Shown here in pieces: positions 3,817-7,169 of a stretch of 38,316 nucleotides of DNA (position 1 is the first letter of the stretch; the number at the start of each line of letters is the position of its first letter). The DNA lies in IMG/VR virus record IMGVR_UViG_3300046522_000049, positions 1 through 38,316 of that record; one strand, written 5' to 3'. This DNA is from a virus. The notes under the pieces were generated by a model. That model was given only the letters and a program-made list of their open reading frames with translations. It did not search any database and had not been told where the DNA came from. The translations under genes were made by a program, and so were the position numbers.

Positions 3817-4052
3817 AAAACAAGCTCATCGACCTGAACAACCATCTCTTTGCCCAACTTGAGCGCCTCAGCGAAGAGGAGATGACGCCCGACCAGATTG
3901 AGAACGAGGTCAAGCGCACGGAAGCGATCGTCGCCGTCAGCCAGCAGATCGTGCAGAACGCCGATCTCGCCCTAAAGGGTGCCAAGCTGGTTGCAGAGCA
4001 TGGCGCTTACGTCGGCAAATATCTCCCCATGATCGAGGCCAAGTCAGAATGA
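3813..4052 (+). CDS. Hypothetical small helical early protein
   Basis: This 79-residue, almost entirely helical protein begins MKNKLIDLNNHLFAQLERL and contains an acidic stretch (SEEEMTPDQIENEVKRTEAI) followed by VSQQIVQNADLALKGAKLV. Proteins of this general form, one next to an HNH gene, recur in phages of proteobacteria, but I know no assigned function. The start ATG 3813 overlaps the previous stop (ATGA), and the end overlaps the HNH gene by 4 bases. A start at 3762 is rejected because it would overlap the previous gene by 55 bases and lacks this coupling. Confidence 0.7.
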   Translation: MKNKLIDLNNHLFAQLERLSEEEMTPDQIENEVKRTEAIVAVSQQIVQNADLALKGAKLVAEHGAYVGKYLPMIEAKSE

Positions 4053-4699
4053 AGGGCCGGGCTATCGCATATTCAGCCGGGGAGATGGCATGGCTTGAGG
4101 CCAACCGCTTACTCCCGATAGCTGACTTCCACCGCGCATTCGTCGAGCGGTTCGGTCGAGACGTGTCTGCACAAAACCTCCACGCTCTCCGCAAGCGTAA
4201 GGGCTGGAAGACTGGCCGAACCGGTCATTTCGCCAAGGGTGCCGAGCCGATGAACAAGGGCAAGAAATGTGCGCCTGGTACTGGCGGGCTCCATCCGAAC
4301 GCTCGACGGACGCAGTTCAAGAAGGGCCAAGAGCCGCACAACACCAACTATCTCGGCCACGAACGGGTGTCGAAGGACGGGTATGTCGAGGTCAGCATCG
4401 ACGAGGTGAACCCGCACACCGGATACGAGCGCCGCTATGTCCTGAAGCATCTGCATGAGTGGGAGAAGGTCAACGGTCCAGTACCCGAAGGCCATTGCCT
4501 CAAGTGTGTCGATAGCAACCGGCTCAACACCGATCCTTCCAACTGGACACTGATCCCCCGCGCACTCCTGCCTCGTCTCGGCGGAAGATTCGGCATGGAC
4601 TACGACGGGGCCGAGCCAGAGGTAAAGCCGTCAATCATGGCCGTGGCGAAACTGCAGCATGCCGTCAAAGAGGCCAAGACCAAAGCGAGGCGAGCATGA
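4049..4699 (+). CDS. HNH endonuclease-type protein
   Basis: This 216-residue protein starts with a helix-turn-helix-like region (AWLEANRLLPIADFHRAFV, then VSAQNLHALRKRKGWKT). It follows with a Gly/Lys-rich section (FAKGAEPMNKGKK, FKKGQEPHNTNYLG) and ends with an HNH core: VLKHLHEWEKVNGPVPEGHC, then VDSNRLNTDPSNWTLIPR. This layout is common in free-standing phage HNH proteins of the HNH_3 type. Such genes may be selfish nicking enzymes or may serve the phage in replication or packaging. It is in frame with the operon logic (4-base overlaps on both sides), so it appears to be a resident operon member rather than an insertion. Confidence 0.8.
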   Translation: MKGRAIAYSAGEMAWLEANRLLPIADFHRAFVERFGRDVSAQNLHALRKRKGWKTGRTGHFAKGAEPMNKGKKCAPGTGGLHPNARRTQFKKGQEPHNTNYLGHERVSKDGYVEVSIDEVNPHTGYERRYVLKHLHEWEKVNGPVPEGHCLKCVDSNRLNTDPSNWTLIPRALLPRLGGRFGMDYDGAEPEVKPSIMAVAKLQHAVKEAKTKARRA

Positions 4700-5053: not shown

Positions 5054-5566
5054 ATGCTGACGAATCTCTTGATGTATCGGCTCCTCATCTGGAATGCGAT
5101 TGGAATCGCCGCGGTGATCTGGGCCTGGCTCCACGGTTACGTCCAGATCCTCTTCAAGGGCGAGACGACCGGCATAGGCTATCTGATGGTGGCGGTCTTC
5201 GTCGTCGGGCTTGCATCGCTCTGCGCGCGGGCCAGAAAGGTATCGATCGGCCTCAATGATCTGAAGCAGCGCCGCATCGTCGACGCTTCAAAGTTCGCAA
5301 TCAAGAATTCCCATATCGGTCACATCGCGGTCTGGCTGGTGACGCTTGGGTTGATCGGCAACATGTTCGGCTTTGCTCATGCGGTTGAAGGGATGGATGT
5401 GTCGAGCGCGACGGAGGCGCTGCATTCGGTCTCGATCATGATCGCCGGGATGAAGATCGCCTTTTACACGACGCTGATCGGGACTTCGCTCGGCCTCTGG
5501 CTGCAGGTCAATTTCGTCATGCTCTCCACAGCCACGGCACTCCTGCAGAAGGATGCAGGCCAATGA
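5054..5566 (+). CDS. MotA/TolQ/ExbB-family proton-channel-like membrane protein
   Basis: This 170-residue protein has four predicted membrane segments (about residues 9-27, 38-57, 86-106 and 123-152). The last two carry the family signature: LGLIGNMFGFAHAV (TolQ/ExbB LGLLGTVxGMxxAF) and GMKIAFYTTLIGTSLGL (family GIxxALxTTxxGLxxAIP). In the known families, five such subunits surround two ExbD/TolR/MotB subunits and turn ion flow into motion. ATG 5054 is preferred over 5015 because AAGGAA lies about 8 bases upstream and 5015 would overlap the previous gene. It is shorter than ExbB or MotA, lacking a large cytoplasmic loop. The next gene overlaps by 4 bases and encodes a matching partner. Confidence 0.8.
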   Translation: MLTNLLMYRLLIWNAIGIAAVIWAWLHGYVQILFKGETTGIGYLMVAVFVVGLASLCARARKVSIGLNDLKQRRIVDASKFAIKNSHIGHIAVWLVTLGLIGNMFGFAHAVEGMDVSSATEALHSVSIMIAGMKIAFYTTLIGTSLGLWLQVNFVMLSTATALLQKDAGQ

Positions 5567-6174
5567 GCAAGCCCAGCGACGAAGTCAATGGCATAGCCTT
5601 CCGCGACGTGCTGATGAATGCGCTGATCGGAATGGCGGCCACGCTCCTGATCATCCTTGCGGCCTCGCAGATCCATGCGCAGTTGCAAGCCTCAGCCGAG
5701 CCTCCGGGCAATCTGACCGTCTATGCCGCATGGCCGGCCGGTGACACAGATGTCGATCTCTGGGTTGTTGGTCCGGCGGAGCCTGTCCCGGTTGGGTATT
5801 CCAACAAATCCGGCGTTATCTGGAACCTGCTGCGCGATGATCTCGGCCTCATGCCGGATGCAACAGCCCTGAATTTCGAAAATGCGTATACCAGAGGCGT
5901 GGTTGCCGGCGAGTATACCCTGAACTTGCACTGCTTCAGGTGCCCGCAACTCCCTGTCCCGGTCGATGTGATCGTCTCGATCAACGACGGGAAGGACGGC
6001 AAGTCATCGAGCAGGACCATCCTTACGTCAAAAGTCGAACTGACGAGACAAGGTCAAGAGAAGACCGTCGTGACGTTCAAGATGGATAAGGACGGCAACG
6101 TCGACAAAGCCAGCATGAACAACGTTTTTCGACCGCTTCGTTCAGCGAAGAAAGCCCAAGGAGGGCAATCCTGA
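5563..6174 (+). CDS. ExbD/TolR/MotB-like single-pass protein with DUF2135-like periplasmic domain
   Basis: This 203-residue protein has a short cytosolic N-terminus and one membrane helix (about residues 14-36). Asp15 sits at the start of the helix in FRDVLMNALIGMAATLLIIL, the place of the ion-binding Asp of MotB (ADFMTAMM) and ExbD. The outer part has a beta-sandwich-like section (LTVYAAWPAGDTDVDLWVV, then GEYTLNLHCFRCP) that resembles DUF2135 (DxDLxV...GxYxL). The C-terminus is basic and charged. No OmpA-like peptidoglycan-binding motif is seen, unlike MotB. It is translationally coupled to the ExbB-like gene before it and to the membrane protein after it (TGATG), which supports a three-part complex. 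The function is unknown. Confidence 0.7.
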   Translation: MSKPSDEVNGIAFRDVLMNALIGMAATLLIILAASQIHAQLQASAEPPGNLTVYAAWPAGDTDVDLWVVGPAEPVPVGYSNKSGVIWNLLRDDLGLMPDATALNFENAYTRGVVAGEYTLNLHCFRCPQLPVPVDVIVSINDGKDGKSSSRTILTSKVELTRQGQEKTVVTFKMDKDGNVDKASMNNVFRPLRSAKKAQGGQS

Positions 6175-6665
6175 TGAATACCGTCATTTCCTCATGGATC
6201 GTGCTCACGGTCATCTTAGGCGCCTGCGCGTGGGTGGCGGTATGGTCCCGTCGTCCTACTCGCCTGCGGCTCCTGTCTGTTGCCGCTTTTTTCTTAAGCA
6301 GCCCGGTTGCGCTCGTCTCTCTCGCCGTCTGCCTCGGCTGGCCGGTTCCATTGATCGGCGGCGTGACCGGTCCATCCGGTGATTACCTGATCCTCGGTTC
6401 CAAGCTGATGCCGAACGAGGCCATCTATATCCTCATCGATCTCGGCAATGCTCCCCGCTACTACGTTCTGCCGTGGAACCAGGATGTTGCAAAGCAGATC
6501 CAGGACGCGATCGACAATCAATCCCAGATGCAGGTGACTATCCCACCTTACGAAATGTCGTGGGAGCGGAGGAAACCTTTGTCCTTCCACGAACTGCCAC
6601 AGCCGAAGGTTCTTCCCGATAAGCCGCGACAGGCCGAAGCGCCGGCGCATTTCGACAGCATCTGA
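6174..6665 (+). CDS. Membrane protein, third member of the ExbB/ExbD-like cassette
   Basis: This 163-residue protein has two hydrophobic segments near the N-terminus (about residues 5-24 and 30-60, the second long and containing VALVSLAVCLGWPVPLIGGV). A soluble domain follows with DYLILGSKLMPNEAIYILID and YYVLPWNQDVAKQIQDAID, then a proline-rich tail (FHELPQPKVLPDKPRQAEAP). I recognise no family. The start shares a base with the previous stop (TGATG), so it is very likely made with the two motor-like proteins. A gap of 15 bases with GGGGAGGGAAGG follows before the nucleotidase gene. Confidence 0.6.
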   Translation: MNTVISSWIVLTVILGACAWVAVWSRRPTRLRLLSVAAFFLSSPVALVSLAVCLGWPVPLIGGVTGPSGDYLILGSKLMPNEAIYILIDLGNAPRYYVLPWNQDVAKQIQDAIDNQSQMQVTIPPYEMSWERRKPLSFHELPQPKVLPDKPRQAEAPAHFDSI

Positions 6666-6680: not shown

Positions 6681-7169
6681 ATGAAGAGACCTCACGTCTA
6701 TCTCGACCTCGACGGCGTCATGGCCGACTTCGATGCTCACTTCCCGGCGCTGTTCGGTATCGATCACCGCGGCATGGCCGATGATGCGATGTGGTCCACC
6801 ATCAACAACCACCCGAGCTACTTCCGCGACATGCCGCTATGCCCCGGTGCCAAGGAGTTCTTCGACCGCATCTCGTGGCTGAACCCGATCATCCTCACGG
6901 CGTGCCCGAGCTCCAACTACGCCCACGTAGCGCGTCAGAAGCGGGAATGGGTCCGGGAGCATCTGTCGACCACCTGCCACGTCCTGCCGGTCATGGGCGG
7001 CCGCAACAAGCCGCTCTTCATGCACTCGCGCGGGGACATCCTCATCGATGACTTCGAGAAGAACATCAACGCCTGGAAGCTTGAAGGCGGCTTCGCAATC
7101 CTCCATCGCGACTTCAAGACGACGCGCGATGAGCTTGAACGTGAAATGGTAAGGAGTGCAGCAGCATGA
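6681..7169 (+). CDS. HAD-family 5'(3')-deoxyribonucleotidase-like protein
   Basis: This 162-residue HAD phosphatase has all main motifs: VYLDLDGVMADFD near residues 7-17 (nucleophile Asp9 and Asp11), IILTACP near 70-76 (motif II Thr), NKPLF near 107 (motif III Lys) and ILIDDFEKN near 120 (motif IV acidic pair). The Asp-x-Asp-Gly-Val start and small cap (FGIDHRGMADDAMW) match NT5C-type enzymes that remove phosphate from dNMPs. In phages, such enzymes tune nucleotide pools. A purine-rich ribosome binding site (GGGGAGGGAAGG) lies upstream of ATG 6681. Confidence 0.8.
   Translation: MKRPHVYLDLDGVMADFDAHFPALFGIDHRGMADDAMWSTINNHPSYFRDMPLCPGAKEFFDRISWLNPIILTACPSSNYAHVARQKREWVREHLSTTCHVLPVMGGRNKPLFMHSRGDILIDDFEKNINAWKLEGGFAILHRDFKTTRDELEREMVRSAAA

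Follow-up and report, generated by a model that had tools for sequence, protein, structure and literature searches.

Three overlapping genes, here called A, B and C, lie at positions 5054–6665 of the window, i.e., the whole 38,316-base virus record analysed here, and all of them encode membrane proteins. The same record carries genes for a terminase, a DnaB-type helicase, a resolvase, an HNH endonuclease and a deoxyribonucleotidase. The closest relatives of its large terminase, at about 50% identity, are those of rhizobial phages, and a megablast search against phages with the first 25 kb of the window as query returned a single 63-base match and nothing else. All three genes are on the plus strand: gene A (5054–5566) and gene B (5563–6174) share an ATGA overlap of the A stop and the B start at 5563–5566, and genes B and C (6174–6665) share a TGATG overlap of the B stop and the C start at 6172–6176, with AAGGAGGG upstream. 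Both overlaps, read directly from the sequence, are where the initial annotation, which described three coupled genes joined in this way, had placed them.

The predicted wheel and axle proteins

Gene A encodes a 170-aa predicted wheel subunit of the MotA/TolQ/ExbB/ZorA type with four membrane helices and without a long cytoplasmic tail. In the hydropathy profile the last of the four helices resolves into two peaks, and the loop charges are as in MotA, with a basic loop between TM2 and TM3 and an acidic loop between TM3 and TM4. The protein of the window itself matches the PADLOC ZorA1 model at 4.6e-7 and the Pfam family MotA_ExbB at an E-value of 0.0057, which is sub-threshold and is counted against the motor reading. 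Among 29 members of the A family, 22 match PF01618 (E ≤ 0.01; best 4.5e-11) and 28 match PADLOC ZorA1. When a profile of the 29 sequences was compared with the PDB, the six best matches were all ZorA/MotA motors (1.4e-6 to 1.1e-5), including ZorA 8qyy at 1.4e-6 and MotA 8gqy at 2.7e-6, and they were followed by an unrelated chain at 2.8e-3 and then by TolQ at 0.03. The part of A covered by the motor match is TM3 and TM4. In PHROGs, A has no match, and neither B nor C has a match above noise. The four helices and the motor signatures ascribed to A in the initial annotation are thus borne out by hydropathy and by the family profile, whose sole confident PDB matches are ZorA and MotA, and on sequence grounds the homology of A to motor wheel subunits of the MotA/TolQ/ExbB type is well supported.

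Conservation was followed through 69 distinct homologues. TM3 of A contains the motif G-L-I-G-[TN]-x-x-G (residues 99–106; 5348–5371, plus strand), in which G102 is kept in all 69 homologues and G106 in 68. Position 103 (codon 5360–5362), one of two polar positions, is Thr in 50 of the 69 and Asn in 16, and position 140 in TM4 (codon 5471–5473) is Thr in 68 and Ser in one, so that Thr or Ser is found there in 69/69. In Zorya and MotAB, the Asp of the B subunit packs against a Ser/Thr ring of the A subunit (PMC11890865); T/N103 would be expected to face the Asp of B, and Thr140 to be part of a Ser/Thr ring around it. The A proteins measured range from 137 to 248 aa, and many phage forms consist of little beyond the membrane core (137–148 aa); that of the window has few residues past TM4.

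Gene B encodes a 203-aa putative axle subunit of the ExbD/MotB/ZorB type, in which hydropathy reveals one membrane helix, at the N-terminus, with an outer domain behind it. Asp15 (codon 5605–5607, plus strand), at the predicted ion-binding place, lies towards the cytoplasmic end of this helix. It is invariant in the 29-sequence set and is present in 66 of the 69 distinct homologues, among which no other residue of the helix region reaches at least 90% conservation; the placing of Asp15 at the ion-binding position in the initial annotation agrees with this pattern. By sequence, none of the 29 B members matches ExbD in Pfam, and none matches the ZorB model of PADLOC.

The three exceptions have Ala at position 15 and come from related chromosomal loci that group together on the tree. 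In addition to the change of Asp to Ala in B, these gammaproteobacterial loci (L086, L087 and L089) have lost a glycine in TM4 of A and possess two tandem C genes. This is to be expected if the Asp is a working residue and the task of this group has changed, and the group is a natural loss-of-ion-site variant. The loss of the Asp in this small chromosomal group is also counted against the motor reading.

The outer domain of B and the third protein

The AlphaFold2 model of B (29 sequences; mean pLDDT 87) consists of a helix at residues 6–43 and then a beta-sandwich, and the outer domain of TerD-like fold comprises residues 49–186 (5707–6120, plus strand). Foldseek alone found nothing below 0.001 when this model was compared with the PDB. 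When VIA-align was run on Foldseek's own candidate list, the first place was taken by TerD 3ibz (Z 10.4, rmsd 3.5, 137 aligned), followed by 2qng, a Streptomyces protein related to TerD (9.3), TerD 2qz7 (9.1), 7jtk (9.0), 9a6r (8.6) and TerD 2kxt (8.4), after which the score falls to 6.3; TerD or TerD-like chains hence occupy places one to three and six. By hhalign, a TerD sequence profile aligns with B at a probability of 1.2%, and in Pfam one of the 29 B members matches TerD, at E 0.08. TerD proteins are usually cytoplasmic, and this usual place, together with a likeness to TerD by fold alone, is counted against the reading of B as a motor subunit with a periplasmic head.

The outer domain had been described as DUF2135-like. 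None of the 29 B members matches PF09906 (DUF2135), and hhalign of B against one DUF2135 protein gives a probability of 25.8%. The B profile also picks up domains of phage proteins of about 670 aa, at 3e-11 to 5e-7, and the record of one of them notes COG4676, which we take to be the YfaP/DUF2135 family; because of these matches the DUF2135 lead is sound. The earlier description therefore stands as a weaker link to DUF2135-type domains, but the fold itself is TerD-like (Z 10.4), and the head of B, as modelled, has a TerD-like fold akin to the DUF2135 type. Beta-sandwich domains of the TerD and DUF2135 kinds, including those of the 670-aa phage proteins, have this fold in common with residues 49–186 of B, but no ion-motor helix is attached to them and no A or C gene adjoins. 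Proteins of about 670 aa with a domain of the B-head type are encoded by Alteromonas AD45-P3 (L135, 2732–4741), DSS3_MAL1 (L136, 2735–4729) and Cronobacter CR3 (L137, 2735–4744); the AD45-P3 gene adjoins a gene for a MoxR-type ATPase.

The DxDL...DDxG...E residues of the head are invariant or almost so in the 69 homologues, and D63, D65, D92, D93 and E106, judged from the sequence, would fit calcium binding. The initial annotation had also remarked that B is without a peptidoglycan-binding OmpA motif, in keeping with a predicted head that is a TerD-like beta-sandwich and with the result for the ZorB model (0/29).

Gene C encodes a 163-aa protein for which hydropathy predicts two membrane helices, joined by a basic loop; a small domain comes after them, and the tail is rich in Pro. 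By the positive-inside rule, both termini would be outside (N-out, C-out) and the small domain would be periplasmic. Searches of C against Pfam, PDB sequences and PDB folds gave scattered single matches and no family, and none of the A-B-C loci examined has A and B without C. The novel third membrane partner that had been proposed is thus upheld in its two helices, in belonging to no known family and in accompanying A and B, but it is not specific to phages.

Gene order, distribution and neighbours

The order A-B-C on one strand is found in all 44 of the loci first collected (L001–L044), which include mutual copies, with 34 distinct phage B sequences in the tree; the collection was scanned with two narrower alignments, a nine-sequence alignment being too diverse. 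The same order is found in 20/20 further gammaproteobacterial loci and 14/15 alphaproteobacterial loci (34/35 chromosomal loci), the sole locus with the order A-C-B being L121 (7991–10037). Several phages have homing endonucleases or small genes in between A, B and C, and the order is retained. This conservation of order is far beyond chance. A search for the three genes in other rhizobial phages had been suggested, and such phage loci are among the 44/44 set. Non-conservation of Asp15 and loss of the gene order in homologues had been named beforehand as findings that would speak against the motor assignment, and neither is seen (66/69 for Asp15; 44/44, 20/20 and 14/15 for order).

Chromosomal copies were sought in three genome samples, each of which takes in the genome on which it was centred. 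A B homologue is present in 32 of 274 gammaproteobacterial genomes (30 at 1e-35 or better; about 11%, or one in nine), in 44 of 289 alphaproteobacterial genomes (35 at 1e-44 or better; about 12%, or one in eight) and in 5 of 298 Rhizobiaceae, four of them strong. Beside three of the four strong Rhizobiaceae copies there are genes for the protease or the phosphoesterase known from 16-3-like phages, so that these copies look like prophages. A-B-C is also found on large Azospirillum plasmids (megaplasmid; L138), with B at two places per record. Among 50,697 phage records, 27 carry the B gene of the set with confidence, some of them duplicated between databases, and their hosts are all rhizobia. 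The carriers are phage 16-3 (genes p038, p040 and p042) and its relatives, Pootjesviridae, N3_13-like phages and I1_18, in addition to the metagenomic UvsX-bearing phages (L017 and L038) and L016, and thus belong to several unrelated phage lineages; the phages nearest the window by terminase are absent among them. The set is therefore phage-encoded, as first described, but phages did not invent it, for copies on the chromosomes of Alpha- and Gammaproteobacteria are common.

The B tree has two main groups, in which phage and chromosomal copies intermix: gammaproteobacterial chromosomal copies are found with large rhizobial phages, and alphaproteobacterial copies with 16-3-like phages and the group of the window. 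The phage label changes at least twice on well-supported branches of this tree, whose bootstrap is not fully settled and which contains long branches, and more than one transfer is therefore likely.

In 24 collected 16-3-like loci, several of which are copies, a gene for a trypsin-like protease, apparently with a signal or anchor at its N-terminus, precedes A, and a gene for a phosphoesterase of the DNA-repair-exonuclease type follows C. This five-gene block is kept in 16-3-like phages and prophages (L004–L006, L010, L020–L036 and L041–L043); in N3_13-like phages, the trypsin-like protease is a few genes off. Bacterial copies are often alone, amid metabolic genes. In one bacterial group, L,D-transpeptidase and DUF302 genes are found upstream and a gene for a vWA-FHA membrane protein downstream, and in another a lipoprotein gene comes directly after C. 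Taken together, the protease, L,D-transpeptidase, lipoprotein and vWA-FHA neighbours point to the envelope. The vWA-FHA protein is joined to the set at L071, L073, L077, L082 and L089, most of which also have L,D-transpeptidase and DUF302 genes, and a lipoprotein gene is near C at L074, L078, L080, L081, L083, L127 and L128. A vWA gene that phage I1_18 carries near C was considered as a partner and set aside, as it differs in kind from that of the bacterial vWA-FHA protein.

In the window, Pootjesviridae phages, N3_13-like phages and UvsX-bearing phages, the set is amid replication genes. This place, found in most lineages, points to expression in an early or middle phase and argues against lysis or virion roles, but in the L016 phage the set is between the genes for the small terminase and the major head protein, and early expression is hence not universal. 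Some 16-3-like phages have a lysozyme gene within some kilobases of the set. Directly downstream of C in the window is a 5'-3' deoxyribonucleotidase gene (6681–7169), which in the relative L012 is several genes away. The HNH gene at 4049–4699, two genes upstream of A, matches phrog_1891 (HNH endonuclease); it was considered as a ZorE and discarded, being without a match to any Zorya model of PADLOC. A PADLOC scan of ten neighbours, including this gene, gave no Zorya match and no confident match to any defence model, consistent with the earlier remark that no ZorC/D/E-like gene is beside the set.

Comparison with known motors and proposed function

The A-B gene pair, the Asp in the B helix, the Ser/Thr in the A ring and the best profile matches of A are all shared with ZorA/ZorB. 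Zorya requires a long cytoplasmic tail on ZorA and a peptidoglycan-binding domain on ZorB (PMC11890865). In contrast, the A proteins of 137–248 aa are without such a tail, the head of B is TerD-like, C is obligate and no ZorC, ZorD or ZorE is present. Membership in Zorya is ruled out by the missing A tail, the B head and the neighbours, and the initial annotation was right that this is not a standard Zorya set, given that the tail, the peptidoglycan-binding domain and ZorC/D/E are all absent. With the MotA/MotB stator the set shares the topology of A, the Asp near the cytoplasmic end of the B helix and a MotA profile match at 2.7e-6, but the phage forms have neither a torque-generating cytoplasmic domain nor an OmpA-like anchor, and they are not beside flagellar genes. 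The ExbB/ExbD/TonB and TolQ/TolR/TolA systems also consist of two motor genes, with a small A, and then a third membrane protein reaching into the periplasm; they differ in that here the B head is TerD-like and C is a two-helix protein with no recognised TonB or TolA domain. A 2025 report describes a TolQ-like pentamer with vWA proteins bearing an Asp helix in Proteobacteria (PMC12204202). That motor resembles the present set in a B subunit with an unusual periplasmic head and in its occurrence in Proteobacteria, but the head there is vWA rather than TerD-like, and that report makes no mention of TerD, nor is a C-like protein described in the text consulted.

Judging by homology, by the conservation of the Asp and the Thr and by the stable gene order, A, B and C probably form a 5:2-type motor with an obligate third subunit that acts on the envelope. 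Here we infer a 5:2 stoichiometry, an ion flow, a topology in the cell and a task: A may form a wheel in the membrane, in which two B helices with Asp15 would form the axle, and the TerD-fold heads of B would be in the periplasm, joined there by the two-helix C as the obligate third subunit. Ions flowing past Asp15 and the Thr140 ring would then turn or pull the heads of B, together with C, against some component of the envelope. The set may be a mobile cassette, common to proteobacterial chromosomes and several phage lineages, that rhizobial phages would bring to hosts without a chromosomal copy. In phages, its likeliest job would be to alter the envelope of the infected cell or lysogen or to protect it, for instance by shutting out other phages or by keeping the envelope sound during phage replication. 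This reading as an envelope device draws on the hosts without a chromosomal set, the linked envelope genes and the proposal that TerD-type Ter systems in phages counter superinfecting phages (PMC7824862); we put forward the envelope-guarding or exclusion role tentatively, as a possibility somewhat short of even.

A motor for defence or superinfection exclusion resembling Zorya, which would sense envelope damage by an incoming phage and signal inward through other sensor or effector parts, appears rather unlikely. ZorA is the known family closest to A, the genome places in phages vary and the terminase-nearest phages are non-carriers, as for accessory genes, and the anti-superinfection proposal for TerD-type Ter systems of phages (PMC7824862) would suit it as well; however, the A tail and the peptidoglycan-binding domain of B that are needed in Zorya (PMC11890865) are absent, the neighbours match no defence model with confidence and chromosomal copies are often solitary amid metabolic genes. 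The conserved ion-path residues and the many phage A proteins cut down to the membrane core (137–148 aa) could instead be taken to mean that phage A and B admit ions and lower the membrane potential to stop rivals or aid takeover, without useful rotation. Such a leak needs neither a large conserved outer domain of B with invariant residues nor an obligate C, and a constant leak would be costly, yet bacterial chromosomes keep the set; we consider it improbable.

We attach very little probability to a motor that aids lysis or DNA passage, i.e., to a role in phage release or entry. The lysozyme gene within some kilobases of the set in some 16-3-like phages would accord with it, but the set is amid replication genes and not lysis or tail genes in the window, Pootjesviridae, N3_13-like and UvsX-bearing phages, and chromosomal copies exist. 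It is just as improbable that an ordinary bacterial envelope gene set was picked up by phages with no selected role: chromosomal copies are common and intermix with those of phages on the tree, but in several phage lineages the order and the Asp have stayed intact across a great divergence, even with insertions between the genes. The envelope device is thus likelier than an ion leak, a lysis or entry role or passive hitchhiking.

The motor type as such is already known, and a small number of bacterial systems with ion-driven 5:2 motors have been described. It is close to an even proposition, in our estimate, that A-B-C represents a class of envelope motor in its own right, powered by protons or sodium, with rotating heads of TerD fold, a dedicated third subunit and a bacterial envelope task, and that rhizobial phages have acquired it repeatedly in order to restore energy to the envelope of the infected cell or to seal it. 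In the open-licence literature, to which the search was confined and which is no proof of the absence of an earlier description, we found no description of a TerD-headed motor, of the C subunit or of a phage-borne motor of such kind. If the proposal is true, this would be, as far as the literature searched shows, the first report from viruses of a rotary motor driven by ions, and a motor that viruses carry, differing in its head and in having a fixed third subunit, would extend the known uses of the 5:2 engine. The analysis also brings to light a common, unannotated bacterial gene set, present in about one in nine of the gammaproteobacterial and one in eight of the alphaproteobacterial genomes sampled. 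Phage 16-3 and its host Sinorhizobium meliloti are classical laboratory organisms and offer a small, genetically tractable case.
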